A stretch of DNA of 64,000 bases, from assembly GCF_032930845.1 (NCBI RefSeq), contig NZ_CP136758.1, positions 1,503,001 to 1,567,000 of the forward strand, in the 5' to 3' direction. The DNA comes from Parvularcula sp. LCG005. Lineage in GTDB: Bacteria > Pseudomonadota > Alphaproteobacteria > Caulobacterales > Parvularculaceae. This document shows positions 41,755-56,566 of the stretch, piece by piece. A model generated the notes under the pieces. It was not told where the DNA came from and did not search any database. It worked only from the letters and a program-made list of their open reading frames with translations. Each line of letters begins with the position of its first letter. The stretch's first letter is position 1. A program made the position numbers and the translations under genes.

Positions 41755-41772
41755 TATTTGCGACAATATCAA
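41755..41772. repeat. Left provirus boundary repeat (att, dif core + XerD arm)
   Basis: An 18-bp sequence TATTTGCGACAATATCAA, repeated exactly at 56549-56566. On the minus strand it reads TTGATA (central region) followed by TTGTCGCAAAT (XerD-like arm). The XerC-side arm here (41773-41783) does not resemble a XerC box, as expected of a phage-derived half. Confidence 0.85.
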
Positions 41773-41809: not shown

Positions 41810-42148
41810 TTAGGCCGCTTTGCTCGTTTTAGGGGAGGGGTCACTAGACTGTAGCCGATCAAGTATAGATAGCCAAATTTCTGACATTTCGCCGTCATGG
41901 CGGGCCGCATGGGCGCGCAACAGCCATTCTTCGACGGGCTCGTTAGCGGCTTCGCACAGTCGGCTTATTGTGCTGTCATCGGGGACGTTTCGGCCACGAA
42001 ATAGAAGAGAAAGAGATCCCGTAGAGATTTCGATAGCGCGCGCCAGCTTGTTCAGCGAGGGGTTCCCGCTGCGGTCCATGGCGCACTGTATTAGCCAAGT
42101 GATTGTCTTGTCTTGAGACACATACACCCCAATAGGTAGCAACTGCAT
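41810..42148 (-). CDS. Xre-family phage regulator (probable repressor)
   Basis: A small helix-turn-helix protein at the left end of the provirus, opposite in direction to the replication/structural genes, where a lysogeny repressor is expected. The core reads ITWLIQCAMDRSGNPSLNKL, then ARAIEISTGSLSLLFRGRNV and DDSTISRLCEAANEPVEEWLL, a five-helix Xre fold. The start is uncertain: ATG 42148 (MQLLPIGVYVSQDK) is used, a GTG just before SQDKTITWL is also good, and an ATG at 42079 would cut the first helix. The C-terminal tail (SDPSPKTSKAA) is short and holds no RecA-cleavage domain. Confidence 0.75.
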   Translation of the reverse strand: MQLLPIGVYVSQDKTITWLIQCAMDRSGNPSLNKLARAIEISTGSLSLLFRGRNVPDDSTISRLCEAANEPVEEWLLRAHAARHDGEMSEIWLSILDRLQSSDPSPKTSKAA

Positions 42149-42237
42149 TGAGAGCATAGGCGGGGCCGGGGGGCATTGCCAAGGCCAGAAAATCACACCC
42201 CTATGACCTTGCCTTTAGTCGTTGGCTAACAGGCAAA

Positions 42238-42858: not shown

Positions 42859-42894
42859 GCCGGTTGCTGCGGATACAGCAACCGGCAGCTTTTT
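42859..42894 (+). terminator. Strong intrinsic terminator in the early region
   Basis: Perfect 11-bp stem GCCGGTTGCTG / CAGCAACCGGC with a 6-nt loop, then AGCTTTTT. It separates the left small gene(s) from the rightward operon. Confidence 0.92.
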
Positions 42895-42919
42895 AAGAGT
42901 CTTTCAGAAAGTCAAGCCG

Positions 42920-43294: not shown

Positions 43295-43314
43295 TGACCC
43301 GCAGGGGGCCGAAG

Positions 43315-43331
43315 GCGGTTTTTTGAACCGC
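43315..43331 (+). terminator. Hairpin in the 43.3-kb intergenic gap
   Basis: Stem GCGGTT/AACCGC with a TTTTG loop, 20 bp after the stop of the preceding gene. There is no T run after the stem; a weak terminator or structural element. Confidence 0.35.
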
Positions 43332-43454
43332 AAGCGGGGTCTGGTCTGTTCAACCATGCTGTTGACTTCCCCACCGGACCCCGCCGCCTTTGGCCCCGAT
43401 CACTGACGGCGCGTCAGCGCACCCTTTCAAAAAATCAATGAGGAATACAGACAA

Positions 43455-43823
43455 ATGGCCAAGATCGGCGAACTGATTATCGAGAAAACGGCGGACGGCT
43501 TTTATGGCAAGGGCCGCATTCGGACAATGCACATGCGGGCGTCTTTTGACCTTCTGCCCGTCGAACGGCAGGGCGATAAGGCCCCCTCGCATCATATCGT
43601 TGTCTATGATGGCGGCGAGGCCGTTCCCATCGGCGCGGCATGGCAAAATGCGCAAAAGCGCGGCGACAATGCAGGCGCGGTCATGTTCTCGCTACGGTTC
43701 GAGGACCCGGACTTCCCGGATTGGGCGCAAAACCTGCCCGCCTATGCAACGTCTCCGGACAATTCCAAGCCGCTGGCGATCATGTTCGACCGCTCCCGAA
43801 ATCAGGACAAAGGGGGCGAGTGA
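43455..43823 (+). CDS. DUF736 family protein
   Basis: A 122-residue protein. IGELIIEKTADGFYGKGRIRTMHMRASFDLLPVE, DKAPSHHIVVYDGG and the VPIGAAWQNAQKRGDNAGAVMFSLRFEDPDFP block follow the DUF736 pattern (GxxW-K core, small beta-barrel). DUF736 is mostly known from alphaproteobacterial plasmids and integrative elements; its role is unknown but a single-strand-DNA or replication accessory is plausible given its place before the Rep gene. The stop overlaps the next start (TGATG). It is the first gene of the coupled operon up to 47829. Confidence 0.8.
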   Translation: MAKIGELIIEKTADGFYGKGRIRTMHMRASFDLLPVERQGDKAPSHHIVVYDGGEAVPIGAAWQNAQKRGDNAGAVMFSLRFEDPDFPDWAQNLPAYATSPDNSKPLAIMFDRSRNQDKGGE

Positions 43824-44155
43824 TGGAAAGGCAAATTATGTACACCATCACCGAGGACGAGGCGAAGGCCCTTAACGACTTGAAGTCCATCGGACTGGCA
43901 ACAACGGCGTCAATGCTCGTGACCTTTCGCCGTTTCATTGATGACACGACCGTCGTGGGCACGCAACTTCGTACGCTGATTGATGCTGAGCGATTGGCAA
44001 ACGGGTCACTGGTCAAGGGGGCTGGCATACACGACTACTTCATCTTTTTGGACGGCATAGACCAATTGCTCGCTAGCTTGCAGGCCAATCTCGATGAGCT
44101 GGTCGAATATGCCAAGTCCTCCAAACATCCCCTCGCGGATAGCTTGTCGTCATGA
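43823..44155 (+). CDS. Provirus protein of unknown function, probably helical
   Basis: A 110-residue protein starting MERQIMYTITEDEAKALNDL. It is predicted to be largely alpha-helical with heptad-like leucines (DGIDQLLASLQANLDELVEYA at the C-terminus). ATG overlaps the DUF736 stop, and a GGGGGCGAG ribosome-binding site lies upstream. No family recognised. Confidence 0.65.
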   Translation: MERQIMYTITEDEAKALNDLKSIGLATTASMLVTFRRFIDDTTVVGTQLRTLIDAERLANGSLVKGAGIHDYFIFLDGIDQLLASLQANLDELVEYAKSSKHPLADSLSS

Positions 44156-44622
44156 CTTCTACTCCGTGCCCGTCCATTTCATCACCTCGCGCTCATGTCA
44201 GCGCGCAAGAGGCTTTTGCTATGCGACGGGCGCGGGCGAATGGGGCCAAGCTGGAGGAAATCGCCTATCAGTTTGGCCGTTCTCGCTACACAATCGGCAG
44301 GCATGTGGCCGGGGTTGATCCGTCTACGCCTCACCGGCGGCGCATGGCGATTGCTGAGCGCGCCTATATTGCTGGCCTCACGTTTCAGGAGATCATCGAA
44401 TTGTCGCGTGGGCAGGTTACATTGCACCATTTGCGCATTGCGGCCCTGACCCCAGACGAGCGCGATGATATGCAGACGAATGACTATCGGCTTCATATCA
44501 TTACGCTCCTGACGCGCGATTTTCCGCTTGCGGACATTCAGGAAATTACTGGCATGTCAAGGGCGGAGATTGCCGACGCGTTGGCGGCCTTCGGGCTGGC
44601 CCTGAAAGGCGGCGACGCATGA
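44152..44622 (+). CDS. Helix-turn-helix DNA-binding protein
   Basis: A 156-residue protein with two or three HTH-like segments: AKLEEIAYQFGRSRYTIGRHVAG, AGLTFQEIIELSRGQVTLHHL and FPLADIQEITGMSRAEIADAL. It resembles small phage regulators or replication accessory proteins. It overlaps its neighbours at both ends by 4 bp (ATGA type). Regulation of the late genes is a possible role. Confidence 0.65.
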   Translation: MTSTPCPSISSPRAHVSAQEAFAMRRARANGAKLEEIAYQFGRSRYTIGRHVAGVDPSTPHRRRMAIAERAYIAGLTFQEIIELSRGQVTLHHLRIAALTPDERDDMQTNDYRLHIITLLTRDFPLADIQEITGMSRAEIADALAAFGLALKGGDA

Positions 44623-45137
44623 CCGAGACGGCCAACACACCCTTGGCGATGAAATTTGCGACATGGTGCAAGCGTCAGCACGGCAGCGCCGATGATGTGA
44701 CCCCTGAACGGTTCAAGCGCGAGATGCTGGACGAACGGGCCCGTCATATGGACTGGGTACTGAACGCTTTTGAACCATCAACCCGGCAATATAACGATCC
44801 TGCCTATGCGGTCACGGTCGCTCTATCGTCACTGGCGCAGGCTATCGAGCTGGTCGGCCTGACCCATGGCGGCGAAGAATACACCAACAGCCAGAGAACG
44901 ACCCTCAAGGCGATGATGTATGGCGCGGCCTGTCAACACGAATTTTCACTGTTCGGGACCGAACACCTGAAACAGTTCTTTACACTGAATATACAGGATA
45001 ATTTTGCTTATATCGGCGACGACTTTGCCAAATGGCTCGCGTCCGAAATGGGCGACGACGATCACGAGGGCGATGCCGATGCCTTCGCCGAATACCCCCC
45101 CCCACCCTCTAACAGGGGGGGGTGGCACCTCATCTAA
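44619..45137 (+). CDS. Provirus protein of unknown function ending in a C9/G8 tract
   Basis: A 172-residue acidic protein (MTETANTPLAMKFATWCKRQ) with a helical body and a C-terminus DDDHEGDADAFAEYPPPPSNRGGWHLI. The last ~15 codons run through nine C and eight G bases, and the Rep gene begins in a different frame inside this end. A one-base slip in the tract would fuse most of this protein to Rep. No family recognised. Confidence 0.65.
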   Translation: MTETANTPLAMKFATWCKRQHGSADDVTPERFKREMLDERARHMDWVLNAFEPSTRQYNDPAYAVTVALSSLAQAIELVGLTHGGEEYTNSQRTTLKAMMYGAACQHEFSLFGTEHLKQFFTLNIQDNFAYIGDDFAKWLASEMGDDDHEGDADAFAEYPPPPSNRGGWHLI

Positions 45138-46320
45138 TCCCCTGATCCGGTTCGAGAGCCTCCCTTCACTGACCCTGACCCCCTTGCCCCAAGGGCACCG
45201 GCTCTTATCGGTCGGCTGGGATACCATTCAGGAAAGCTGGGACATTCAACCGGGCGGTCCTTGGTACGCCGTCTTGGAAGTCGCCAAGAAGCGGGCGCAA
45301 GAGAACCGCGAAGGCGGCGAGGGCGTGGCCGTCCTCGAGATCGACGGGGAGCCGTGGCGCGTGTCGTCGGCGGGGGCGATGGGCGGGATCCGGTATGTCA
45401 TTGATAATGGCAAAATCATGCTCCTGATACGGGGGCAGGGGCAGGCGTTTGGTGTACTGGTACGCTACCTGTCGGCAGGTCTATGGCTCGACGGTTGGGA
45501 GGCGTTGCAGGTCGAGGCGGAGGCCATTGTAAGGCGTCTGTTTTCCTGTCCACCGGTTATTCCGGTGAGGGTGAGCCGGGCGGACTGGTGTTTCGACTTC
45601 TACGCGCCGGGATACAAATTTGACGCGTTCCAGATGCGCAAAAATTTGGTCGCTCACTCAAGCGTAAAGTTTCACATTCACGGAACATCCGTCCACGATG
45701 AAACCTTTCTTGTCGGGGCGCTCGGAAACAGACAGCTAACGCTCTACAATAAGACGAAAGAGCTTAAGGATAAGCCGGGCAAGGAATGGTTCTACGACGT
45801 CTGGGCCGTCGCCAATGATGGCGAAATTGTCTTTCCCGATGAGCCTAAAGACGTCTACCGGCTGGAAGTTCGACTAGGCAAGGAGGCCTTCAAGAACCGG
45901 AACATTCGCACACGGGCGGAAGTGATCGACCATCGCGCTGAAACGGTGGCCGGGGCGTTGGCGAATATCAGGGTCGTGGAGCCGGGCGAGGACAGCAATA
46001 AGGACAGACGGCCGGTAAACCCGTTCTGGTCCGAAGCAATCCGGAATTGCGACGTGTCAGAACAGATCAAGGTTGGCCGATATGTGACGGGAAAGCGCGC
46101 GTGCCTTCTCGACCAGATGGCCGCGCAGATGGCCGGGACAATCCGCAGCTATTCCATTTTGCAGGCCAATGAAGTGAGCGACGGCGGGGTTGAAGCCGTC
46201 GTCAAGCGCGTTGTCGAGATCATGAAAAATGATCCGGAGGCGAAGAAGAAGGAGAAAGCCGCAAGTGAAAGATACAAATTCGTGAACGGAGCCGGAGACG
46301 ATGCCACGCAAACTGATTAA
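45079..46320 (+). CDS. Replication initiation protein (Rep_trans-like, rolling circle)
   Basis: A ~413-residue protein. After a low-complexity Pro/Gly N-terminus, it carries the pattern of Rep_trans/phage replication initiators: VRVSRADWCFDFYAPGYKFD, then FHIHGTSVHDETFLVGALGNRQLTLYNKTKELK, and DVYRLEVRLGKEAFKNRN, where Asp, Tyr and the acidic/basic residues form the nicking site in the family. It would nick one strand to start rolling-circle replication, as PM2 and filamentous phages do. Start is uncertain: ATG 45079 has GAGGG eight bases upstream. It overlaps the gene before by 59 bp and the gene after by 20 bp. Confidence 0.75.
   Translation: MPSPNTPPHPLTGGGGTSSNPLIRFESLPSLTLTPLPQGHRLLSVGWDTIQESWDIQPGGPWYAVLEVAKKRAQENREGGEGVAVLEIDGEPWRVSSAGAMGGIRYVIDNGKIMLLIRGQGQAFGVLVRYLSAGLWLDGWEALQVEAEAIVRRLFSCPPVIPVRVSRADWCFDFYAPGYKFDAFQMRKNLVAHSSVKFHIHGTSVHDETFLVGALGNRQLTLYNKTKELKDKPGKEWFYDVWAVANDGEIVFPDEPKDVYRLEVRLGKEAFKNRNIRTRAEVIDHRAETVAGALANIRVVEPGEDSNKDRRPVNPFWSEAIRNCDVSEQIKVGRYVTGKRACLLDQMAAQMAGTIRSYSILQANEVSDGGVEAVVKRVVEIMKNDPEAKKKEKAASERYKFVNGAGDDATQTD
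45095..45125 (+). repeat. C9 / G8 homopolymer tract at the Rep gene start
   Basis: Nine C (45095-45103), then ACCCTCTAACA, then eight G (45115-45122) and TGG. The arms can pair (CCACCC with GGGTGG, or C8 with G8). It lies in two overlapping coding frames. Confidence 0.8.
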
Positions 46321-46681
46321 AAAGCATGACCTGCACTATGAAACCATCGGGCATATCACCTGCCCTTCATGCGCGCGGGAAGGGCTTCCCCTCAAGGTCA
46401 ACCAGAACATGAGCGTCTATGCGAATTGCAGCCGGGCACTGAATACCCCGGCGCCGGGCGAGCGGGCCGAACGGTGTCTGCACCGGCAGGTCTATGACAG
46501 CCGTAAATCCGCATCTCTCATCAATACCTATCGCAACCAAACCGAACCGAAGGAGCAAGGCCATGCCGAACCCGTCAAAACAACCCCAGATGACACCCGA
46601 ACCGACGGACGAACCGAAGAGCGACCAGTGGCCGACGAACGAGGCGAGCGGCGCGACGACGGAATCGACCTCTGGTATTGA
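46301..46681 (+). CDS. Provirus small zinc-ribbon-like protein
   Basis: A 126-residue protein. The first half has HITCPSCAREGLPL with a CxxC and later cysteines (YANCSRAL, AERCLH), suggesting a zinc-binding knuckle; the second half is disordered and rich in Glu, Arg and Asp. It overlaps Rep by 20 bp and the following membrane-protein gene by 119 bp in another frame. Confidence 0.6.
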   Translation: MPRKLIKKHDLHYETIGHITCPSCAREGLPLKVNQNMSVYANCSRALNTPAPGERAERCLHRQVYDSRKSASLINTYRNQTEPKEQGHAEPVKTTPDDTRTDGRTEERPVADERGERRDDGIDLWY

Positions 46682-47162
46682 GCGCGCGCAGGAGGGCGGT
46701 GCTGACACTTCGCATCTCGACACCATGATTGAGGATATGGCGAACGAGGAGGCCGCAGAAGCGCAGGAAACCGCTATTGCGACCATGAAGGACAGCTTCA
46801 TGGGCAAAGAGGCGTTCTTCATGATGTTCTGCGCAGCGTTTGCCCTGCCCAATCAGGTGGCGGCGGGTCTGCGCATGGCGAGGGTGAACACGGGACCGCT
46901 CCCCTTGGCGAGCCTCCCCATCGCGCCCCATGAACAGGAGGCCGCGCAAGGCGCGTCTGATGCCCTCTATGACACGATTGTGGCCATACCCGCCCTGCAT
47001 TTCATCATTCAGCCTGGCGGGGAATGGATGCCGCGGATCATCGCCATTGCGACCTTTGGCGGGCTGAAGCTGATGGCGATCAAGGCGGAGCTGACAGCGC
47101 GGGCGCACGCCGCGGCAACGGCGTCCGACGAGGCACAGGAGGGTGACGCCGATGACGCGTGA
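46563..47162 (+). CDS. Provirus membrane protein upstream of the packaging ATPase
   Basis: A 199-residue protein. An acidic, Pro/Thr-rich N-terminus (MPNPSKQPQMTPEPTDEPKS) is followed by two hydrophobic regions (KEAFFMMFCAAFALPNQ; DTIVAIPALHFIIQPGGEWMPRIIAIATFGGLKLMAI) that could be one or two membrane segments. AAGGAG stands 8 bases before ATG 46563. It ends 11 bp inside the ATPase gene. It probably belongs to the packaging vertex or virion membrane. Confidence 0.65.
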   Translation: MPNPSKQPQMTPEPTDEPKSDQWPTNEASGATTESTSGIERAQEGGADTSHLDTMIEDMANEEAAEAQETAIATMKDSFMGKEAFFMMFCAAFALPNQVAAGLRMARVNTGPLPLASLPIAPHEQEAAQGASDALYDTIVAIPALHFIIQPGGEWMPRIIAIATFGGLKLMAIKAELTARAHAAATASDEAQEGDADDA

Positions 47163-47829
47163 GAATGCCAAACGGATCTTCATTGCCGGGCGCACAGGGT
47201 CCGGTAAATCGACCCTCGCGCGGTCGATGTTTCGCGGGGCAGGGGCGCGGGTCATTGTCTGTGATCCTAAGGGCGACTGGCAGCACGAACGCGGATTCAA
47301 GGCTATTGTCACCGCGCCGGGCTGGCCTCTCGCGCTGTTGCGGACCTTAAGAACCCACTGGCAGAAGGGGTTTAAGATCGCCCTTGTTCCGCCCCCGGAT
47401 GGCGGTAGCCCGGCGCAGGACCTGATCGAGACCTGCAAGCTGCTGTTCAAGGTCCAGAAGCCGTACCATGAGAGGCAGGACGACCGACAAATCACGCTCG
47501 TCATGGAGGAGATGTCCTTTTCCTACCGTCAGGGCGTCGTTTCTCCGGAAGCCTATGCGCCGGTGCAATCCATGATCCGCATGGGGCGCGACTGGGGCGT
47601 GAACATGATCGGGATCACTCAAAGCCCCGGCACCGTGAATCGCGACTATCGCGCCAATTGCGCCGAAGTGTATCTTTTCGCGCTCGGCATATCGGACGCC
47701 AAATCCGTGACGGACGTTAAGGCCCTCATCAAGGACCCGGCACTTAAGTCCGCCTACGATACGATGCCGAACTATCACTATATCCGCATCACGGATCATT
47801 CCTGTGACATGCTGAAAACGAAAAAATAG
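47152..47829 (+). CDS. FtsK/HerA-type packaging ATPase (PM2 P9 / PRD1 P9-like)
   Basis: A 225-residue soluble ATPase: Walker A FIAGRTGSGKSTLARSMF at ~residue 10, VIVCDPKGDWQHER, Walker B ITLVMEEMSFSY, and the sensor stretch GVNMIGITQSPGTVNRDYRANCAEVY with its Gln-Ser in the Q-motif place. The short, single-domain form without a membrane anchor is what tailless viruses use to package DNA; inoviral Zot proteins are similar but carry a membrane anchor. ATG 47152 with AGGAGGG upstream. A terminator follows 3 bp after the stop. Confidence 0.85.
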   Translation: MTRENAKRIFIAGRTGSGKSTLARSMFRGAGARVIVCDPKGDWQHERGFKAIVTAPGWPLALLRTLRTHWQKGFKIALVPPPDGGSPAQDLIETCKLLFKVQKPYHERQDDRQITLVMEEMSFSYRQGVVSPEAYAPVQSMIRMGRDWGVNMIGITQSPGTVNRDYRANCAEVYLFALGISDAKSVTDVKALIKDPALKSAYDTMPNYHYIRITDHSCDMLKTKK

Positions 47830-47831
47830 GG

Positions 47832-47854
47832 AAGGGGGCTTAAGCCCCTTTCTT
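47832..47854 (+). terminator. Terminator after the packaging ATPase
   Basis: Perfect GGGGCTTAAGCCCC palindrome flanked by AAG/CTT, then TTTCTT. The 11-bp GGGGGCTTAAG recurs at 47867-47877. Together they separate the replication/packaging operon from the virion genes. Confidence 0.75.
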
Positions 47855-47964
47855 ACAATTTGTTCAGGGGGCTTAAGGACGGCTCCCTTTTGTCCCTTTA
47901 CGGATGAAGAAAACGCCCGGCCTATAGAACCTGCAATCGAGCAGTGAACTATGAGGCCCGACCA

Positions 47965-48102
47965 ATGCCAAAAACCGCAAAATCCATCGTGGTGGGTACA
48001 TTCGTGACCCTTTCGGCCATGTGCATTTTCGAGTTTGTCATTCGTCCGATGGCGTCGAAAAAATCGACGACCGGGACAGCCTCACCAACTCAAACCGTGT
48101 GA
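47965..48102 (+). CDS. Tiny single-span membrane protein 1
   Basis: A 45-residue protein: MPKTAKSIVVGTFVTLSAMC, then IFEFVIRPMASKKSTT. One hydrophobic span and a short basic tail. It sits with a second such gene directly before the capsid gene, as small membrane proteins do in membrane-containing phages. Below common gene-calling size. Confidence 0.65.
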   Translation: MPKTAKSIVVGTFVTLSAMCIFEFVIRPMASKKSTTGTASPTQTV

Positions 48103-48111
48103 GGTTCTACC

Positions 48112-48294
48112 ATGTCCAAGGTCTCTGGGATCGTTTCCAAAACCAACGTTAAAACGGTCGCTATGACCGCTCTGGGCGTCATCATCGCTGGTGCCGCGCT
48201 CTACTATCTCGGCAAATATCCGGTCTTCAAACAGGCGTCCGACGGCCTCGACGGCAAGGCCAAGGGTGATGGCCTGTTCGGCATGTTCGGCTGA
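48112..48294 (+). CDS. Tiny single-span membrane protein 2
   Basis: A 60-residue protein: TNVKTVAMTALGVIIAGAALYYLG span with basic N-terminus, then DGLDGKAKGDGLFGMFG. Likely a virion membrane protein of the lipid layer. ATG 48112 follows the 48102 stop by 9 bp. Confidence 0.7.
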   Translation: MSKVSGIVSKTNVKTVAMTALGVIIAGAALYYLGKYPVFKQASDGLDGKAKGDGLFGMFG

Positions 48295-48338
48295 TCGCTT
48301 ACCACCCCTTTCAACAATACGTTAACGGAGCAGTTGAC

Positions 48339-49271
48339 ATGAGCGAGACCCAAAAAGCCGGAAATACCGCCGCTGCCGCCATTGCGGTGATGGCCCCAAG
48401 TTTTGACCGAATGCGCCCCGAGCCAAATATCACCGGCATTGTGCCGGGCGGTACCGGCATCCTCAAAATCAGTGACCGCGCCCTTGTGCACAGTCTGGAA
48501 TTTCGGTTCCATGGCGGGCTTCTCCCCAGCCATATCACCGGCCTGACCGTGCTGCTGGACAGCCAAGTTATCATGAAAATGAGCGGCACATATCTTGCCG
48601 ATATTTTCAATGTGTACAAGGACGATTGGGACCCGGCAGTGACGGGCACGGCCACACTTGATTTCGCCAATCCGATGTTGCCCGATCCTGTCGAGGCGAC
48701 ACGAACCGCCATTCCGGTTGGCAATGGCGCAGGCGTCGGCACGCTGGAAGTGCAGTTCGAGATTGACGACGCGGCCCCAGCCGCAGGCAAGCTGACGGTC
48801 AAGTCACAGGTGGGACCGTTGCCCGTCGATGCGGAAGGCCGGGTTATTGCCGGGGCAGGCAGTATCCCCCGCGTCATTTCCGGATCGGTGCAGGGGATCG
48901 AAGTCAACACGCCCATCCGGCTCGACAAGATCGTACCGGCGCGCGTCGGCGCGGACAGCAAGAAGCGGATGCTGGAAAAGCTGGTCTTCGACCTGCCATA
49001 TCAGAATATCGCAAAAATCGAGATTCTTGACGGCGAACAGACCATCGACACGCTGGACCCCGTGCGGCTGAACCGCGACCAGGCCGCAGCCGGGCGCTAT
49101 TTCATCCCGACACGGCAGATCATTGACAAGGTGCTGCGGAGCCGGATCGGTGCCTATCGCGTCATGGCGTTTGAAAATCTGGTTGTGCAGGTCACGTTGC
49201 AGGAGAGCGGCGCTTATCCGCTGCCGGCCAATCTGATCTACACGGCACACCTGACCGGCGCGCTGCACTAG
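48339..49271 (+). CDS. Candidate major capsid protein
   Basis: A 310-residue protein, largest in the block before the spike, with no membrane span and a strand-rich sequence (SLEFRFHGGLLPSHITGLTVLLDSQ, ...TLEVQFEIDDAAP...KLVFDLPYQNIAKIEIL, ...NLVVQVTLQESGAYPLP), suitable for a double jelly roll. It is preceded by two small membrane proteins and followed by a very strong terminator, as for a highly expressed coat gene. PM2 P2 is similar in size and position relative to the ATPase. The fold assignment is inference; sequence alone does not prove it. Ribosome-binding site GGAGCAGTTGAC. Confidence 0.6.
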   Translation: MSETQKAGNTAAAAIAVMAPSFDRMRPEPNITGIVPGGTGILKISDRALVHSLEFRFHGGLLPSHITGLTVLLDSQVIMKMSGTYLADIFNVYKDDWDPAVTGTATLDFANPMLPDPVEATRTAIPVGNGAGVGTLEVQFEIDDAAPAAGKLTVKSQVGPLPVDAEGRVIAGAGSIPRVISGSVQGIEVNTPIRLDKIVPARVGADSKKRMLEKLVFDLPYQNIAKIEILDGEQTIDTLDPVRLNRDQAAAGRYFIPTRQIIDKVLRSRIGAYRVMAFENLVVQVTLQESGAYPLPANLIYTAHLTGALH

Positions 49272-49306
49272 GCAAGCCCTATAGGCGGTGCCTGATACAT
49301 TCATGC

Positions 49307-49339
49307 GGGGGCGGGTGATCGACCTCGCCCCCTTTTTTT
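49307..49339 (+). terminator. Strong terminator after the candidate capsid gene
   Basis: GGGGGCG (49307-49313) pairs with CGCCCCC (49326-49332), with GGT/ACC inside, and seven T residues follow. Confidence 0.95.
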
Positions 49340-49360
49340 CGTCCGGCTACGGAGTCTCAC

Positions 49361-49753
49361 ATGAGCATTTTCAGCGGAATTAACAGTCTCGTGACCACGG
49401 CCAAGGAAACGGTCACGCGCGACTACGGCAATGGCGGGCTGACCCGCGTGCCGACGCAGGTCAGTCAAGGGTCTCTCCTGATGGCGGAACCGGCCAAACA
49501 GTCGATCTTCGGCGGCATCCTAGAGGCCGCGACGGACACACTGGAAACCCTGACACCGGGCATTATTTCCGGCTGGCTGGGTTATGGACCGCCGGAGGCA
49601 CAGCAGATCAACAGCGCCGGGGCGGGTGCGACGGGCGGACAAGTGCCCGTCTCGACCTCCGGCAGTGCAAGCGGCGCGGGCGGGAATAACGCCATGATTT
49701 TGGCGGGCGGTGCGCTCGCCATTGCCGCTCTTTTCGTCGTCATGAAGAAATAG
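49361..49753 (+). CDS. Provirus virion protein candidate with C-terminal membrane anchor
   Basis: A 130-residue protein. The N-terminal ~85 residues are soluble (MSIFSGINSLVTTAKETVTR), then a Gly/Ser/Ala linker and a C-terminal span NAMILAGGALAIAALFVVMKK. C-terminal tail anchors recur in the next two genes, suggesting a set of membrane-bound virion proteins. No family recognised. Confidence 0.65.
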   Translation: MSIFSGINSLVTTAKETVTRDYGNGGLTRVPTQVSQGSLLMAEPAKQSIFGGILEAATDTLETLTPGIISGWLGYGPPEAQQINSAGAGATGGQVPVSTSGSASGAGGNNAMILAGGALAIAALFVVMKK

Positions 49754-49764
49754 GACGTGATCCG

Positions 49765-49953
49765 ATGGCTGTTTCGCTTCCGTCCCTGACCCTCGCGTCA
49801 AGCGATAAACTCGGCTCCGGCTTTGGCGGTCAGGACAACGGGCAGTCATGGGTCTTTGCCCCGCAATATGGCGCGCCGTCACAGGCGGGCGTTCCATGGG
49901 GCATGATCGCAGCCGGGGCGCTGGTGCTGTTTCTCGTGATGGGGAGGCGCTGA
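49765..49953 (+). CDS. Small tail-anchored provirus protein
   Basis: A 62-residue protein (MAVSLPSLTLASSDKLGSGF) ending in one span (GVPWGMIAAGALVLFLVMGRR). The next gene starts 1 bp after its stop. Probable internal-membrane virion protein. Confidence 0.65.
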   Translation: MAVSLPSLTLASSDKLGSGFGGQDNGQSWVFAPQYGAPSQAGVPWGMIAAGALVLFLVMGRR

Positions 49954-49954
49954 A

Positions 49955-50335
49955 ATGGGGCTCCTGTCGTCCAAGAAAACATCCATCACCGAAAACACAA
50001 GCCTGAGCGAAACGACCAATCAATCCGTCTACGGAGCGGGGGCCAGTGTTTCGACCCAAGGGGACGTGACGATCGAAAGCACGGACCATGATTCCGTGAT
50101 GAATGCCATCGCGCTGGCCGCGACCGTCTCCGACGACGCCAACGAGCTGGCAACGTCAACTGTGGGGCAGGCGTTCGAGGCGTCCAATCAGGCGCAGGCG
50201 CAGGCATTCAAGGCGTTTGCGGAAGCGGACCGGACGCAGACGGAGCAATTGTTCACGGACCTGTCATCGCTACTGGTGACACTCGGTTTCATCATCGGCG
50301 GCGTCATCATCTTGCCCAAAATCTTCAAGGACTGA
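49955..50335 (+). CDS. Provirus virion protein candidate with C-terminal span
   Basis: A 126-residue protein with a Ser/Thr-rich N-terminus, a helical middle rich in Ala/Gln (GQAFEASNQAQAQAFKAFAEAD), and a C-terminal span (LSSLLVTLGFIIGGVIILPKIF). It resembles minor membrane proteins that link capsid and membrane. Coupled to its neighbours on both sides. Confidence 0.6.
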   Translation: MGLLSSKKTSITENTSLSETTNQSVYGAGASVSTQGDVTIESTDHDSVMNAIALAATVSDDANELATSTVGQAFEASNQAQAQAFKAFAEADRTQTEQLFTDLSSLLVTLGFIIGGVIILPKIFKD

Positions 50336-50339
50336 TCCC

Positions 50340-50843
50340 ATGGCATTGATTGAAACCAAGGTTATCCAGATTGTGAGCGCGGGCGTCTGGCAGGACGTGG
50401 AGACGGCCCAATGCGACAACATCACCTTGCAAAAGGGGCTGGGGGAAGTCTGGGTCAAGGGGCAGAACACCAAACCTATTCTGTTGCAGGAAAACGCAAC
50501 CCTCAATGAACGGATCATCTCGCCTGAGATCAAATCCTCGTCCGAAGAACGCTTGTTCATTGGCCTGAACATGGACCTCCGCCAGACTTCAAAAACCGCC
50601 GGTTCGCTGGTGCTGGATGCTTCGACCATCGCGGCTTTGAAAGTCGTTGGCCTTGATGCGTCCAGCCTGACGGCCATCGGTGAAGCGATTACGACGCGCG
50701 CGCTGGCGGCCATCCTCCAGGCCAATGTACACGCCGACACCGCCCAAGCGCTGCGCGATATCCTCACGCATGGGGACGTTCAGAACGCGTTTAAAAACAG
50801 TTTTGTGACCGCCCTGACCGAGTACGGCGCGGCAACCGCATAA
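50340..50843 (+). CDS. Provirus virion protein of unknown function
   Basis: A 167-residue protein with strand-rich N-terminal half (IQIVSAGVWQDVETAQCDNITLQKGLGEVWVKG) and a helical C-terminal half. No membrane span. Its position before the spike gene could fit a penton or vertex protein, but that is a guess. Confidence 0.6.
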   Translation: MALIETKVIQIVSAGVWQDVETAQCDNITLQKGLGEVWVKGQNTKPILLQENATLNERIISPEIKSSSEERLFIGLNMDLRQTSKTAGSLVLDASTIAALKVVGLDASSLTAIGEAITTRALAAILQANVHADTAQALRDILTHGDVQNAFKNSFVTALTEYGAATA

Positions 50844-50854
50844 GGAGCAATAGA

Positions 50855-53800
50855 ATGCCAAAGTTCACATTTTCAGGATATGGGTCTGGGTCTGGCAGCT
50901 CTGGGTCTGGCTCCGGTTCGGGCGGCACGGGCGGCAACAATTTGACCGGCGTTCTCGCGTCAATCTGGCTGGCGGGCGTCGGGGTCCCCAACATCGCAAC
51001 CGCCGAAGGCGTCTCGACATTCACTCATCCGGTGACGGAGGAAGTTGTCACGCTGGAAGAGGGGGCCAATTATCTCGACTTGGCGACGGGGACGGCTTAC
51101 GCCTTTGATGACGAAAACGACGAATGGGACGCCTTTCAACCGTTCGGCGGCGGGGGGCTGCTGTTCGACACGCGCAATCCGACCACGGAAGACGGTTACG
51201 ACGGGGCCACATGGCTCAACACGAACACGGGTTCGGTGTACGAGAAAGACGCGGGCGCATGGTCGCAAGTGTCAAGCCTTGTGGGTCCTGCTGGACCGAC
51301 CGGCCCGGCCAATGGCCGCGAGTTCCGCTCATTCGCAGGCGTGCCCACCGACGAAGTGGGCAAGAACGGTGACACGGGATTGAACCGTCTGACCGGTGAT
51401 CTTTACGTGAAGGCCGCCGAGACATGGACGCTCACGGGACAGAACATTTCAGGGCCACAAGGGGCCGACGGCAAGTCAGCCTTTCAGCTTTGGCTTGATG
51501 CAGGGAACACCGGCACGCTTACCGATTATTTTCTCTCGAACAAGGGGGACCAGGGCGAACCGGGTTCACCGGGCGGTTTTTCCTTCCGGACCGGGAACGG
51601 CGCGCCAAACGATGTTCTTGGGATCAACGGTGATGCGTATGCGGATCGTGACAATCGCGGACTGATCTATATCAAGTCGGCTGATACGTGGATCGAGACG
51701 GGCGACTATATCGGGGCCAATCAGATCATTGCAGGCAATGGCTCGCCGACCGGCGCGCAAGGGCTGATCGGTGATCTTTACGTTGACCTCGACAATAATT
51801 CGCGGCTGTATGAAAAGGCCACGGCAACGGCATGGATCGACCTGCAACGCTCGCTCGGCGGCAAGGGTGATCCCGGTAAATCCGCCTACGAATTGGCCGT
51901 TGAAAATGGCTATGTCGGCACGCTGGAAAGCTGGCTGTCCTCTTTCGATGGCGTGGACGGTAAATCCGCATACGAACTTGCCGTCGATGGCGGTTTTGTC
52001 GGGAGCGAAAGCGCATGGCGGGACTCCCTCGTGGGGCCGCAGGGCGAAAGCGCATATGAATTGCACGTGCGCCTCGTCACAGACGCGGGACAGACGCCCT
52101 ATTCGACCAAGGCCGCATGGTTGGCCAGCTTGAAGGGGGCCAAGGGCGATGCGGGCGAAGTGATCGGGATTGACCGGATCGGCGTCACCGGCGTGCCCAA
52201 GGACGGTACAGGCGATGTGACGGCAACGCTGATCGCAATGAACGCGGCGAACCCCGGCAAGCTTCTTGCGCTGGAACCGGGCGAATATCGCGTGCTGATC
52301 GGCGCGGGCGACAGCGTTTTGCCCTTCGCCGCGAATGGCGGGCTGATCGGCGCAGGCCGTGAAAACACCAAGTTGACGCTGGCCTATACCGGCTCCGCAA
52401 CAAGCTTCGTCAAGGACATTTTTGATTTTGGGGTGGCGGTCACGTCGTTCCATGTGGCTGGTCTGGATATCTCAATCGAGGTGGATGACCCTGACAGCGA
52501 GCAGGTCTTCCGCCTGTTCAGGTGGATGCCGGGGATGACGCGGCTTGAAATCCTGAACAACCGTATCCGGACCAATGCGACCTTCGATGCGCCGGGCAAT
52601 ATCAGCTATAACACGCAAGTGATTGACTGCACCGAAGGCACGGCGTTGCGGTCGGGCCTGATCGTTGAGCGGAATATCATTGAGCGGATCAAATGGGGCT
52701 TTATTTCGACCAATGAGGCGCAATGTCAAAGCGCACATATCCGTTTCTATGACAATCAGTGGTCGGACATTGGCGCGTTGCCGCTGTGCTTCAATGCGCC
52801 GCACCCTTCGGCGTCGATCACCGACGTGATTGTTGATGGTGACAGCTTCCACGATATGCGGAACCCAAGTGGGTATCAGCACGCGATTGCCTTCACGGGC
52901 CAGAACGTGTCGGGCGGTCGGTTCCGCAATATCCGCGTAACCGGCATTTGCGGGCCGATCTTCCACTCCGAAGAGGGCGCACACGACATTATTGTTGAGG
53001 ACTGCACGCTGGTCGGCGACATGCGCGCGGGCGGCGTCATCGAGTTCAAGGATAACAATGTGGGCGGCGAGTATCTGGCTTCCCATACTGTCACGGTGCG
53101 GAACAACCGCGCAACCTTCACTGGCGAAACCAACACGAATTGTCATGGCCTCATGGCCACCTATGACGGCGTAGGGGTGGCCACGCTGAAAGATGCGGTC
53201 ATCGAAGGCAATTTCTGGGACGGCTTTGACCGGGGCTTGGCGCTGGGCAAGGATACCGAGACGATTTTCGTTCGCGGGGATCGCTTCAAAAACTGTAATT
53301 TCGGCCTTCATGCCCGCAACCCTAGCCAATCGTTCGAACACGTCATTATTGACGAGGGCACGCTCGTCGGCTGCTACTTCACCAAGGCGGGCATCATCGG
53401 CACGGTGGAAGCGCGCAATGGCGGCGGGTCCGATGCGCTCATCAAGACGAACAGCGTGCATCAGGAAGTGTTTGCAAAGGAAATCATCGTTGAAAAATAC
53501 GATGTGACGATTGCGGACGGGTCGGCGATCATCTGCCCGCTCATCACGGCCCCTTGGCGCGTGGATGCTGAGTTCATCTGCATGATTGAAAAGGGGGACA
53601 GCGCGCGGCGGTCGGTCTCCGGCAAAATGAAGGGTGCGGACAATGGCGGGGCGATGTCCGACTATCAGGTCGCGGTCGATCGGGTGTCGGGATTGGGCGT
53701 CGTCGCCTTCGCCGAGGGCAACGAGATTGTGGCACAGGGGGCCGGGTCTATCATCAACCCGCGCGTCGTCGAGGGGATTTTCGGCGATGATGGAAATGTC

Positions 53801-53899
53801 TTCGGGCCGCGCCTGTCCACCACGGCGAGCGAAGCGGACCGCTCGGGCTGGCGGGTGCATCTCGTCATGCGCGGCTCGATCATGTGGATCAACAACTGA
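50855..53899 (+). CDS. Collagen-like / right-handed beta-helix spike (receptor-binding) protein
   Basis: A 1014-residue protein. A Gly/Ser tract near residue 8-30 (SGYGSGSGSSGSGSGSGG), then collagen-like Gly-X-Y pieces (GPAGPTGPANG, GPQGADG, GDQGEPGSPGG, GKGDPGK) interspersed with repeats of KSAYELAV/KSAFQLWLD and LESWLSSFDG, followed from ~residue 430 by a right-handed parallel beta-helix (NNRIRTNATF, ITDVIVDGDSFHDM, IIVEDCTLVG, TVRNNRATF, VIEGNFWDG). Collagen-like shafts plus beta-helices are typical of phage receptor-binding fibres or polysaccharide depolymerases. In a tailless virus this would be the vertex spike. The stop overlaps the endolysin start (TGATGG). Confidence 0.85.
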   Translation: MPKFTFSGYGSGSGSSGSGSGSGGTGGNNLTGVLASIWLAGVGVPNIATAEGVSTFTHPVTEEVVTLEEGANYLDLATGTAYAFDDENDEWDAFQPFGGGGLLFDTRNPTTEDGYDGATWLNTNTGSVYEKDAGAWSQVSSLVGPAGPTGPANGREFRSFAGVPTDEVGKNGDTGLNRLTGDLYVKAAETWTLTGQNISGPQGADGKSAFQLWLDAGNTGTLTDYFLSNKGDQGEPGSPGGFSFRTGNGAPNDVLGINGDAYADRDNRGLIYIKSADTWIETGDYIGANQIIAGNGSPTGAQGLIGDLYVDLDNNSRLYEKATATAWIDLQRSLGGKGDPGKSAYELAVENGYVGTLESWLSSFDGVDGKSAYELAVDGGFVGSESAWRDSLVGPQGESAYELHVRLVTDAGQTPYSTKAAWLASLKGAKGDAGEVIGIDRIGVTGVPKDGTGDVTATLIAMNAANPGKLLALEPGEYRVLIGAGDSVLPFAANGGLIGAGRENTKLTLAYTGSATSFVKDIFDFGVAVTSFHVAGLDISIEVDDPDSEQVFRLFRWMPGMTRLEILNNRIRTNATFDAPGNISYNTQVIDCTEGTALRSGLIVERNIIERIKWGFISTNEAQCQSAHIRFYDNQWSDIGALPLCFNAPHPSASITDVIVDGDSFHDMRNPSGYQHAIAFTGQNVSGGRFRNIRVTGICGPIFHSEEGAHDIIVEDCTLVGDMRAGGVIEFKDNNVGGEYLASHTVTVRNNRATFTGETNTNCHGLMATYDGVGVATLKDAVIEGNFWDGFDRGLALGKDTETIFVRGDRFKNCNFGLHARNPSQSFEHVIIDEGTLVGCYFTKAGIIGTVEARNGGGSDALIKTNSVHQEVFAKEIIVEKYDVTIADGSAIICPLITAPWRVDAEFICMIEKGDSARRSVSGKMKGADNGGAMSDYQVAVDRVSGLGVVAFAEGNEIVAQGAGSIINPRVVEGIFGDDGNVFGPRLSTTASEADRSGWRVHLVMRGSIMWINN

Positions 53900-54486
53900 T
53901 GGAAATTCTCATCCTTCTGGCGTTGGGCGCGGCTGGCGTCGCGCTCTATCGTTCGCGCATCGACGTTGCCGTGCCGGGTGTCCAGGCGCCAAACGCTGCA
54001 CCTGAACCGACCAGGCCGAACGTCGTCATCACCTATGAGGATGATTACTCCTACGGGTCAGGGGCAACCTACACGGCGGAAGACGTCGATTATATGGCGC
54101 GAACGCTTTGGGGCGAGGCGCGCGGCGAGGATGATGCGGGCATGAAGGCCGTCGCGTGGGTCATCCGCAATCGCCGGGACAGTGGCCGGTTTCCGTCGTC
54201 CATCAAGGGCGTTGTCACACAGGCATGGCAGTTCTCCACATGGAACGCGACCGATCCAAACCGCGCCAAGATGCTGGCCGTGACGGAATCGGACAGCCAA
54301 TTCCGGCGCGCGCAGTCCATCGCGCAATTGGTCCTGTCGGGCGCGACTCCGGACCCGACGGGCGGCGCGGTGCATTACGCCAATGAATCGATCATCCCGT
54401 CATCATCGGCGGCGTGGGAGTGGATACAGACCGCCGAGACCCGCCAGAAAATCGGTCAGCATACGTTCTATACGGGAGTGGCATAA
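53899..54486 (+). CDS. SleB-type cell-wall hydrolase (endolysin or entry enzyme)
   Basis: A ~195-residue protein. The N-terminal span (MEILILLALGAAGVALYRSR) is followed by a hydrolase_2/SleB domain: AEDVDYMARTLWGEARGEDDAGMKAVAWVIRNRRDSGRFP with the family Glu in WGEARGE, then QFSTWN, and GGAVHYANE. SleB enzymes are lytic transglycosylases acting on peptidoglycan. ATG 53899 overlaps the spike stop. It may be carried in the virion membrane for entry or used for lysis. Confidence 0.88.
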   Translation: MEILILLALGAAGVALYRSRIDVAVPGVQAPNAAPEPTRPNVVITYEDDYSYGSGATYTAEDVDYMARTLWGEARGEDDAGMKAVAWVIRNRRDSGRFPSSIKGVVTQAWQFSTWNATDPNRAKMLAVTESDSQFRRAQSIAQLVLSGATPDPTGGAVHYANESIIPSSSAAWEWIQTAETRQKIGQHTFYTGVA

Positions 54487-54704
54487 TGGGAAAAATCGTC
54501 TTTGAAGCGGGCAAGTGGGTCCTGACCGGCGTCGGCGTGTGGGTGGCGGGCCGGTTTGTGAAGGATGCAGGCGAGGGCTTGGAGGCCGCTGGCGATGGCG
54601 TCGAAGCGGTCGGCGAGGGCGCAGCCAAGGCCGCCAATGGCATCGGCAATGCGGTCGCCATCTCTCTGGCGGCCTTCGTCGCTTACAAGGTCCTGACAAA
54701 GTGA
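54486..54704 (+). CDS. Small membrane protein, holin-like candidate
   Basis: A 72-residue protein: hydrophobic start (WVLTGVGVWVAGRFV), a repetitive middle (GEGLEAAGDGVEAVGEGAAKAANG) and a second span (NAVAISLAAFVAYKVL). ATG overlaps the hydrolase stop. Position in a lysis block suggests holin or related function. Confidence 0.6.
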   Translation: MGKIVFEAGKWVLTGVGVWVAGRFVKDAGEGLEAAGDGVEAVGEGAAKAANGIGNAVAISLAAFVAYKVLTK

Positions 54705-54994
54705 GCGAGCGCGACGAGCCGCGCAAGAGCCTGTCTCTGGCGACCATGGGGATTTTGGTGGCCATGGTCACTCAGGTGGCCATCACGCTGATTTGGGTGG
54801 GCAAGATCACCGAGGCCGTGGACGGCCTGAAAATCGCGACCGAGAACATTGCGCAGACGGACGACATTGTCCGGCTGGAGCGCAGGATCGACCGGGCAAG
54901 CGGGCGCGTGGATGCGCTCGAAGCCCGTATTTTCACCATGGCTAGCGAAAGGAACCCGGCCCATGCTCAACAAGATAAAAGACTTATTCCGTAA
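54701..54994 (+). CDS. Single-span protein with coiled coil, spanin-like candidate
   Basis: A 97-residue protein starting at GTG 54701, which overlaps the previous stop. A charged N-terminus is followed by one span (ATMGILVAMVTQVAITLIWVG) and a long coiled-coil region (LKIATENIAQTDDIVRLERRIDRASGRVDALEARI). This resembles inner-membrane spanin (Rz-type) topology or DUF2730-like lysis proteins. Its 3' end overlaps the next gene by 32 bp in another frame. Confidence 0.6.
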   Translation: MSERDEPRKSLSLATMGILVAMVTQVAITLIWVGKITEAVDGLKIATENIAQTDDIVRLERRIDRASGRVDALEARIFTMASERNPAHAQQDKRLIP

Positions 54995-55187
54995 GCGGAT
55001 TTTGGAACCCTCGACCCATGCCGCGATTGCGGTCGTGATCGCGCTGTTTTTCCCTGATGCGAAGGGGGCGGAGGAGCATATCCTCGTGATCTTCAATTCC
55101 ATGGCCGATGTGATCGCGGCAGGGTTTGCTCTGGCGGCGGTCTTCATGCCGGAACGCGGCAAAGTCCCGGACAGGGCGAGAGAATAG
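54963..55187 (+). CDS. Small membrane protein, holin-like candidate
   Basis: A 74-residue protein: basic amphipathic start (MLNKIKDLFRKRILEP), two spans (THAAIAVVIALFFP; HILVIFNSMADVIAAGFALAAVFMP) and a charged tail. Two spans with short loops fit a class II holin. AAAGGAAC ribosome-binding site upstream. A terminator follows at 55215. Confidence 0.65.
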   Translation: MLNKIKDLFRKRILEPSTHAAIAVVIALFFPDAKGAEEHILVIFNSMADVIAAGFALAAVFMPERGKVPDRARE

Positions 55188-55195
55188 CCCCACGC

Positions 55196-55963
55196 TTAAG
55201 GCTTCCTCTCAACTGCCCTGGCGTGATCGCCGGGGCTTTTTTCATTTGCAGAGGTATTGTCGGGGGCGGGGTGAGCGTCGATAACTATGCAAGTGCGTAA
55301 AGCTGCGCATATTTCGCCGGTCCTTCCATAGTTATACGATGCATTGTATGCCGCAATTAAAAGCGCCAGAGCACCGTACCAGAACACGGACCATCGGTCT
55401 AAGTGTCGCTCTTTAAGATCACCCGCGGTGCCTCGATATTTTTCGATCTCCTGTAAATTACGATCGAGAACATTAATTTCCTCAACATCGACACTTTGAA
55501 AAAAGTTGTAAGTTATGAAGTTGTGGTTCTCCACAATTATTTGATAAAAATCCCTCATTTCTTTGCTAAACTTTTCAGACGTTTTCGACAGATGTATAGT
55601 CTCCAGTATATCGTTTGTTCTTCGCTCGAATTCGTCCTGTTCTTCCTTTGTGGAGATCGTATGCTCTTGATACCTACGTAGGTGCTCACAAAATTTCAGC
55701 AAAGCATTCAAATTCTTCCGCATGGATTGAAGAAGAGCTTTGTGTTCATTTTCTGGAGGGTGCGAATAAATTGCGAGCCCGAATGACACCATGAAATATA
55801 TCGTGCTGAGCGCCAAAAGCGGTAGAACCGCACTTCCAGAAAACTGAAAATAGCTACCTGGCATTGCCACATTCTGCCCGACATATCCGCATATCGAAAA
55901 AATGATCAATGCGCTGGCGCTAATTCCTAGCGCAGTGCGGGTTTGATAGGTCTGATTGCTCAT
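55196..55963 (-). CDS. AT-rich membrane protein of the lysogenic cassette, unknown function
   Basis: A 255-residue protein with two N-terminal spans (ALIIFSICGYVGQNVAM; VLPLLALSTIYFMVSFGLAIYS), a long helical middle (KNLNALLKFCEHLRRYQEHTISTKEEQDEFERRTND) and a C-terminal span (WSVFWYGALALLIAAYNASY). Its base composition is clearly AT-richer than the rest of the provirus, and it is transcribed leftward, convergent to the lysis genes. Genes at such a place often act in lysogeny (superinfection exclusion or host defence). No family recognised. Confidence 0.65.
   Translation of the reverse strand: MSNQTYQTRTALGISASALIIFSICGYVGQNVAMPGSYFQFSGSAVLPLLALSTIYFMVSFGLAIYSHPPENEHKALLQSMRKNLNALLKFCEHLRRYQEHTISTKEEQDEFERRTNDILETIHLSKTSEKFSKEMRDFYQIIVENHNFITYNFFQSVDVEEINVLDRNLQEIEKYRGTAGDLKERHLDRWSVFWYGALALLIAAYNASYNYGRTGEICAALRTCIVIDAHPAPDNTSANEKSPGDHARAVERKP
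55215..55242 (+). terminator. Terminator of the structural/lysis genes
   Basis: A 9-bp GC-rich stem (GCCCTGGCG / CGCCGGGGC, one wobble) with a TGAT loop and six T residues. It lies inside the 3' end of the convergent minus-strand gene. Confidence 0.88.
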
Positions 55964-56025
55964 TTAACGCCCCGCTCTCCAAGGCCGAGCGAGGTCGACC
56001 GCGTGCCCGACGGTACGACACGCCC

Positions 56026-56418
56026 TTAACCTTGTCGACGATAGAACCACCGGCGCTGCGCATCTTGCCAACCGATCCCGTCGGCCACGGAGCTGGGCGG
56101 GTCCACGGGCGCGACATCGACCAGAAGACGGCCTTCTTTTGCAAGCCGGTCCACGGCAGCGGCCTGCCCATGCTCAAAACCTTCACTGTAGAGCGTCCGG
56201 CGCGTGATCTCGCGGGCAAGGGTGCGGATGACCGCAGCCTCGATCTCGGCTTGCTGGTGGCGCTCTGGAGCCCGTAGCGCGCGAATGACGTTCTTGATCG
56301 TTGCAAGGCTGACATTGTGCAGCTCGGCATTCTCGGCGTTCGTCACGCCGCGTCGCCATGCCCGCATAATGCTGCGGTTTCTATTGGCTCTATGCTTGGC
56401 CGCTTCTGTGTGTTGCAT
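56026..56418 (-). CDS. Provirus HTH protein, first gene of the leftward cassette
   Basis: A 130-residue protein with a helical, basic N-terminal half and a helix-turn-helix-like segment (RGVTNAENAELHNVSLATIKNVIRALRAP), then a linker and a C-terminal tail (GIGWQDAQRRWFYRRQG). GGGGAAA lies upstream of the start. It leads the two-gene cassette (with 55196-55963), read from a promoter next to the right boundary; it could be an autoregulator or control switch. No family recognised. Confidence 0.6.
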   Translation of the reverse strand: MQHTEAAKHRANRNRSIMRAWRRGVTNAENAELHNVSLATIKNVIRALRAPERHQQAEIEAAVIRTLAREITRRTLYSEGFEHGQAAAVDRLAKEGRLLVDVAPVDPPSSVADGIGWQDAQRRWFYRRQG

Positions 56419-56472
56419 AAATTTCCCCGGTGTGATTTGGTCCGATCGTCAAGACTTTTTGCCTCAAATTAA

Positions 56473-56489
56473 GGCTAATTATTTTAGCC
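56473..56489. promoter_or_regulatory. Palindromic operator candidate at the right end
   Basis: GGCTAA-TTATT-TTAGCC, 6-bp arms. Half-sites with the same core occur at the left end (TTAGCCAAGT at 42091-42100, as in the right copy, and TTGGCTAA at 42223-42230). It may bind the provirus repressor. Confidence 0.45.
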
Positions 56490-56548
56490 AAGTCTAAATT
56501 CCCCACTGTGCTTTCCCTATATTTATCAACAACTTGAATCTCCCAGAT

Positions 56549-56566
56549 TATTTGCGACAATATCAA
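56549..56566. repeat. Right provirus boundary repeat
   Basis: Exact copy of the 18-bp repeat at 41755-41772. It forms the XerD half and central region of the dif-like site at 56550-56577. Confidence 0.85.

Follow-up and report, generated by a model that had tools for sequence, protein, structure and literature searches.

A 64,000-nucleotide stretch of the Parvularcula sp. LCG005 chromosome (contig NZ_CP136758.1, positions 1,503,001 to 1,567,000; hereafter the window) carries a 14.8-kb prophage at 41755-56566 that resembles the tailless phage PM2. One of its open reading frames (ORFs; 50855-53899, + strand) encodes a 1014-amino-acid (aa) protein with a repeat shaft and a large head, referred to here as the spike. 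This protein is probably the receptor-binding vertex fibre of a temperate, tailless PM2-like phage, mounted on a separate penton base and built from a shaft and a head of tailed-phage type. The reading is carried by the ORF itself, its repeats, its prophage context and two homologies, one of the shaft to tailed-phage fibres and one of the head to a tail protein encoded on the same chromosome. As a spike of a PM2-like prophage whose entire shaft is of tailed-phage type, it varies a kind already known.

The ORF starts with an ATG behind an AAGGAG, and its GC content at third codon positions (GC3) is similar to that of the neighbouring genes; length and position agree with a preliminary description of this DNA. 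Closely spaced and with a ribosome-binding site, the gene sits between the P10/P1 place and the lysin gene, where the spikes of PM2 and Jorvik lie, and the role of vertex spike is taken from this position. The shaft, approximately residues 60-440, mixes A units, B units and Gly-X-Y links. The A unit is about 48 residues long with the pattern 'GD-Y-D--TG-LY-K---W' and occurs in four copies between residues 100 and 340, with a possible fifth, by eye, near residues 62-100. The B unit, of SAYEL type, occurs in four copies (residues 207, 342, 370 and 398), with KSAFQL in the first and ESAYELHV in the fourth. With the limits of the copies set by eye, no more than 1 of 500 shuffles reached the observed score in any of the 12 within-family pairs (12/12). 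Further, residues 101-445 contain seven Gly-X-Y runs of 3-4 triplets, two of them (169-177 and 300-308) within A units; the 22 triplets compare with a shuffled mean of 3.7 and were reached by 0 of 2000 shuffles. The preliminary description had recognised the KSAYELAV-type repeat but counted three copies instead of four, and it had missed the four A units. The collagen-like pieces that it reported do alternate with the repeats, although the runs are short and a Pfam scan of the spike gave no collagen match up to E=1.

Sequence comparison supports the assignment of the shaft to the tailed-phage type, as the preliminary description had supposed of its modular design. The best function-named PHROG families for the shaft are tail proteins (phrog_13286, E=9.6e-19; phrog_15437, E=1.4e-17); the single best family, phrog_25979 (E=1.7e-20), has no given function. 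By tblastn, the spike matches 191 of 50,697 phage records. Among the 40 matches listed, which are taken as tailed phages from name and size (75-323 kb), parts of residues 103-499 are covered, and the annotation is in most cases tail fibre, tail spike or structural protein. Read by eye, two known fibres show the unit alternation of the spike: the 1326-aa gp173 of Burkholderia phage SURPRISE13 (A, B and Gly-X-Y) and orf32 of Roseovarius Plymouth podovirus 1 (A-like, B-like and Gly-X-Y). Both proteins belong to tailed phages, whereas the spike belongs to a tailless element, and the Gly-X-Y runs of SURPRISE13 are longer (3-11 triplets) than the 3-4 of the spike. The SAYE motif was not found in the other PM2-like loci scanned, a set without the whole L046 contig and PRD1.

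The head leads to a tailed phage by a separate route. Searched against 398 genomes of the order, it matched two, its own and one other. The own-genome match besides the spike (E=1.5e-15; query residues 14-503, approximately 454-943 of the spike) is the only long one, and it lies in an 824-aa tail protein of a podovirus-like prophage on the same chromosome (P0006; G000:C1:1003220-1005691; N-terminal DUF2793). BLASTP of the head against P0006 gives 23% identity over 486 residues (E=2e-15). The partner locus is assigned to a tailed, podovirus-like prophage because its neighbours include a head-tail adaptor (phrog_332, E=2.5e-90), tail proteins (phrog_376, E=1.1e-109; phrog_394, E=1.5e-15), a major head protein (phrog_3437, E=1.2e-20) and a phage lysozyme. 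The two proteins have related heads but differ in front of them, P0006 carrying a DUF2793 tail module where the spike has its collagen/A/B shaft. The match in the other order genome (33% over 159 residues, E=1.7e-4) is to a pectate-lyase-like protein that by eye has a Tat-like N-terminus and cellular-looking neighbours.

The rarity of this head was approached from both proteins. A profile of the two heads found, among 385 class genomes, only the two genomes of the order search. In the reverse search, P0006 matched 27 of 119 genomes; in the 26 others, every match falls between residues 15 and 200 of P0006 and almost every one in the DUF2793 part, while in its own genome it found itself, a neighbouring ORF (residues 148-246) and the tailless spike (residues 297-771). 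Similarly, 71 records of the phage collection match P0006, among the 15 matches listed in residues 20-138 only, and the head of the spike gave no tblastn match in that collection. The genome samples were drawn evenly from larger groups with a loose first search pass, and unsampled relatives may exist. A head common to a tailless and a tailed prophage of one genome supports exchange between virus classes more strongly than the preliminary description, which had suggested it, had grounds for; at 23% identity this amounts to a shared head family within one host, recent transfer and its direction being outside what the data support. This shared head is new and is the point of specialist interest. 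The tailed prophage region (G000:C1, ~1.000-1.026 Mb; loci L005 and L007) also encodes three DUF2793 proteins within ~6 kb, and beside its lysozyme gene lies a 776-aa ORF with no PHROG or Pfam match at E<=0.01.

The fold of the head is suggested less firmly. NosD models match residues ~730-825 with E=0.099 (Pfam) and E=0.0018 (NCBIfam), both under the curated cut-offs. A coil motif, written after reading the sequence, is enriched in the head (8 against 0.97; 0 of 2000 shuffles); for a second version, 7 of 2000 shuffles came up to the observed count. The homologous head in the tailed prophage shows enrichment of neither. Against PDB sequences, the spike gave one chance-level match (E=0.56). The beta-helix of the preliminary description is thus weakly supported, as a putative beta-helical head with a C-terminal domain.

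The tailless setting proposed earlier holds up well, and the coat, the packaging ATPase, the P10-like protein, the gene order and the bounding repeat support a PM2-like (Vinavirales-type) element (Table 1). The prophage is flanked by an exact 18-bp direct repeat with just two copies in the 3.08-Mb genome when up to 2 mismatches are allowed. Its genes run from a Rep_trans-like initiator through the ATPase, the coat, small membrane proteins, the P10/gpJ-like protein, the 167-aa ORF, the spike and SleB to small ORFs. The order from coat to lysin is that of PM2 and of the Jorvik structural operon, and the ATPase lies near the coat gene in the order ATPase-P2. In phmmer searches, the top matches of the P10/gpJ-like protein include the P10s of related prophages (best E=0.0058). 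SleB is described as the lysin of the mostly alphaproteobacterial clade A (PMC9502842, in part), from which an alphaproteobacterial host would be guessed.

The known tailless systems offer two precedents for the arrangement. PM2 P1 and Jorvik gp14 occupy the same operon place, after P10/gpJ and before the lysin, in phages with a like coat and ATPase. However, PM2 P1 unites JR1, JR2 and the spike domain in a single chain of 335 aa, whereas this element has separate ORFs of 167 and 1014 aa, and a P1 domain is detectable in neither. In PRD1/PR772, as proposed here, a small base gene (P31) directly precedes the spike gene (P5), and P5 has a collagen-like stalk; in PRD1 P5 the Gly-X-Y run GIKGDKGDPGAPGPA starts at residue 124. 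A collagen-like stalk by itself is therefore not new for tailless phages, and the collagen-like shaft is not supported as the pointer to tailed phages that the preliminary description took it for. P5 has one 5-triplet run, while the spike has several short runs parted by A/B units and a different, much larger head. According to excerpts of PMC6750898, three P5 and two P31 chains form the PR772 penton base beneath the stalk, and the P5 N-terminus resembles P31 and joins the pentamer; in contrast, the 167-aa and 1014-aa proteins here show no similarity (BLASTP, best E=6.2).

Spike variation among PM2-like phages is on record, since near-identical Cr39582 and PM2 have unrelated spikes (PMC5968719). 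Vinavirales genome maps published in 2022 list a 'fiber, tail fiber protein homolog' (PMC9502842, Fig. 3 legend), which by legend label alone is a tail-fibre-like gene in PM2-like prophages, as here. A P1 homologue with a penton domain is present in each genome shown there, and the word 'collagen' is absent from the main text. The literature search found no paper combining collagen, spike, tailless and double jelly-roll, and PMC1950889 gave no match for the spike, fibre, collagen or host-recognition terms looked up.

Related prophages place the spike in a wider pattern. The coat domain PF18628 marks 10 of 385 class genomes and 2 of 398 order genomes, the own genome included in both; nine other class loci and one other order locus were read, with ORFs called mechanically and roles assigned by position and eye. 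One contig (L037) ends in the coat gene, and the other eight class relatives have a P1-like ORF after P10. Six of these eight readable loci (L030, L031, L034, L035, L036 and L038) have one or more extra ORFs between the P1-like gene and the lysin; L032 and L033 have none, and in the order relative L046 no large extra gene accompanies the P1-like ORF (219 aa). Tailed-phage or pectate-lyase/depolymerase-type modules were detected in three of the five extra-gene slots tested: a pectate-lyase-like protein in L031 (PF12708, E=1.6e-9, with tail-spike PHROGs), a phage depolymerase C-terminal domain in L036 (PF25692, E=9.8e-6) and a tail fibre in L035 (phrog_11355, E=9.2e-11, in the first of its extra ORFs). 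A 77-aa ORF after P1 in L012 gave no match. The frequent presence of an extra gene in the slot after P1, three times with such modules, is likewise new.

P1 also tends to be shorter where the extra gene is present, in an exploratory comparison grouped after looking and with starts chosen by eye. Its length is 188-207 aa in the six relatives with an extra gene, the window left out, and 219-335 aa in those without (L046, L033, L032, L011, Jorvik and PM2). Of 924 label arrangements 1 is as extreme, or 1 of 1716 with the window entered as 167. The choice of start leaves some ambiguity, L035 reading as 197 or 192 aa and L011 as 255 or 243. The comparison left out L012 (256 aa, then the 77-aa gene), L037, L014 and L015, as well as L013, L016 and L017 (PM2-like by eye, with ORFs of 495, 495 and 328 aa at the P1 place) and L018 (by eye a different kind of element). 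The P1-like protein of L035 (7155-7748) matches Pfam DUF7243 with E=4.8e-4, under the cut-off; this family may include penton proteins.

Several results weigh against a tailed-phage-type fibre on a separate base. With only 3-4 triplets, a Gly-X-Y tract may not suffice for a stable triple helix by itself, single-sequence structure prediction of the head was too poor for use (mean predicted local distance difference test score, pLDDT, 35.2), and the slots of L030 (two ORFs) and L034 gave no match. A P1 model ranked the 167-aa ORF 9 of 81 ORFs (E=4.7), a Pfam scan up to E=10 gave it no Spike_JR match, and its single-sequence structure model was unusable (pLDDT 45.8). The 167-aa ORF is named a putative penton base from its position at the P1 place only, because the P1 model, Pfam, hhalign and phmmer were all negative.

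The controls show how these negatives are to be read. Ten relatives went into the P1 model. With one of them omitted at a time, it put the P1 assigned by position at the top in 10 of 10, and it did the same for PM2 P1 (E=0.025); in L011 the P1 at the usual place came second (E=4.1e-5). The rank of the 167-aa ORF does not prove P1 to be absent from the element, because the model also missed the known Jorvik P1 (rank 2, E=1.3). In Pfam, PM2 P1 matches all three P1-family domains and Jorvik P1 none. Aligned with nine P1s by hhalign, the 167-aa ORF reached a probability of 0.9%, where the best of 100 shuffles reached 0.6%, and the alignment fell on the second domain; the test had no power, because the PM2 and Jorvik P1 controls also failed (0.1% each). 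With phmmer no P1 was recognised for the 167-aa ORF, while the same test on the window's coat protein placed four coat proteins on top, weakly (best E=0.002). The 167-aa ORF further gave no tblastn match in the phage collection and nothing better than E=0.44 against PDB sequences. In L011, a second ORF at 888 (+) scores better under the P1 model (E=2e-9) than the P1 at the usual place.

These negatives also speak for a different assignment, in which the 1014-aa protein is itself P1, its N-terminus forming the penton, and the 167-aa ORF is accessory. PM2 and Jorvik do have a single P1 gene at the place now held by the two ORFs, the smaller ORF is negative in all P1 tests, and in PRD1/PR772 a single chain, P5, contains penton domain, collagen-like motif and knob together (PMC6750898, in part). 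We regard this as improbable: only ~60 residues, many of them Gly or Ser, precede the first A-like sequence, while the JR1 domain of PM2 P1 has ~78, so that by eye there is too little sequence ahead of the shaft for a P1 domain. In addition, the spike has no match to the P1-family domains of Pfam (Spike_JR1, Spike_JR2, Phage_spike_P1) up to E=1, and the related prophages read encode P1 apart from the extra gene. The similarity of the two heads could reflect convergence or ordinary deep beta-helix homology instead of exchange, given that the identity is only 23%, that beta-helices are repetitive and score easily against each other, and that the tailed partner shows no enrichment of the coil motif. 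This is unlikely but the most serious of the alternatives; the match spans 486 residues and takes in the C-terminal region past the presumed coils, and the other searches (one short match in the 397 other order genomes, nothing added by the two-head profile in 385 class genomes, a reverse search that was also unique) speak against it too.

Two further readings concern whether the protein belongs to a working virion. It could be the product of a moron, either an adhesin or an exopolysaccharide enzyme, that works on the lysogen or outside it, as beta-helix proteins with a related N-terminal region exist as cellular secreted proteins (the pectate-lyase-like order match). A place in the structural operon between P10 and lysin, shaft units that match tail fibres and an N-terminus without a signal peptide by eye make this very unlikely. 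Least probable is a dead remnant of a decayed prophage. No integrase was noticed by eye in the element, where no search was aimed at one and not all ORFs were scanned, but use of host XerCD is presumed for Jorvik-like phages (PMC10589892, in part); the main structural genes have open reading frames, the two bounding repeats do not differ and the spike resembles its neighbours in GC3.

On the preferred reading, a vertex fibre on its own base, the spike would be made as a separate protein seated at the capsid vertices on a small penton base, probably the 167-aa product. Its N-terminal peptide and Gly/Ser linker would tether it to the base. Since the fibre would lie outside the pentamer, an adenovirus-like tether is needed and not a PR772 heteropentamer, both of which are described in excerpts of PMC6750898. 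The jointed shaft of A, B and short Gly-X-Y units, presumably a trimer, would keep the head off the capsid and let it reach through the host surface layer, where the probably beta-helical head and C-terminal domain may bind or trim surface polysaccharide; the steps after host contact would be as in PM2-like phages. Shaft and head would have been acquired from the tailed-phage pool of fibres and spikes. A broader proposal, to which we give slightly less than even weight, is that receptor-binding heads move between the realms of dsDNA phages (tailless Varidnaviria and tailed Duplodnaviria), the two prophages of this chromosome bearing related heads on unrelated supports, with the slot after P1 a dock for tailed-phage fibre parts and P1 here reduced to a bare socket.

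How tailless phages change hosts is poorly known, and they are reported as numerically dominant in the upper ocean (PMC9502842, in part). If the slot does take tailed-phage modules, knowledge of tailed-phage host range and depolymerases becomes usable for tailless phages, and co-resident prophages are a natural place to look for exchange. A structural question is also raised, namely how a five-fold base holds a fibre that, unlike PR772 P5, takes no part in the pentamer.

Table 1. Features of the prophage and of the spike protein, in window coordinates.
Feature	Coordinates	Strand	Basis
18-bp direct repeat, left bound (family D14)	41755..41772	+	Whole-genome repeat count
Putative repressor, element start	41810..42196	-	Helix-turn-helix-like by eye, and position; function inferred
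Replication initiator, Rep_trans-like	45004..46320	+	Pfam PF02486, E=1.7e-4, under curated cut-off; true start maybe further in
Packaging ATPase, PM2 P9-like	47143..47829	+	phrog_2666, E=1.4e-16; alignment with PM2 and Jorvik ATPases
Short membrane protein at PM2 P7 place	48112..48294	+	60-aa ORF; position only
Major capsid protein, PM2 P2-like double jelly roll	48339..49271	+	Pfam P2_N PF18628, E=3.7e-8, above cut-off
P3-like membrane protein	49361..49753	+	Position; hydrophobic C-terminus by eye
P10/gpJ-like membrane protein	49955..50335	+	Aligned, 25% to PM2 gp j and 27% to Jorvik gp13
167-aa ORF at P1 place, putative penton base	50340..50843	+	Position between P10 and spike
1014-aa spike/fibre	50855..53899	+	ORF with ATG start
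Spike: N-terminal peptide and Gly/Ser linker, residues 1-30	50855..50944	+	Read from sequence; possible anchor to penton base, role inferred
Spike: four A units, residues 100-149, 152-200, 242-290, 290-340	51152..51874	+	Pairwise comparison
Spike: first B unit, residues 203-232, KSAFQL	51461..51550	+	Motif and pairwise comparison
Spike: B units 2-4, residues 338-430, KSAYELAV type	51866..52144	+	Motif and pairwise comparison
Spike: head, residues 439-1014, putative beta-helix and C-terminal domain	52169..53896	+	Homology to tailed-prophage tail protein; weak NosD matches
SleB-type cell wall hydrolase	53884..54486	+	Pfam PF07486, E=6.5e-23; overlaps spike gene end
18-bp direct repeat, right bound	56549..56566	+	Whole-genome repeat count

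Close relatives of the element are scarce in the collections searched. By sequence, the coat protein was found among 100 relatives in its own genome only, and it gave no tblastn match in the phage collection; back-translated patterns of the coat protein, the head and the single ATPase found no close relatives in IMG/VR or GTDB contigs. An ATPase alignment search led to eight distant IMG/VR loci (L011-L018). A GNAT acetyltransferase lies between P8 and P10 in Jorvik and in PMC9502842, and by eye there is none at 49361-50335. By eye, the sequence beside the right 18-bp copy (56549-56566) bears some likeness to a Xer/dif arm; published work proposes this route for Jorvik-like phages.

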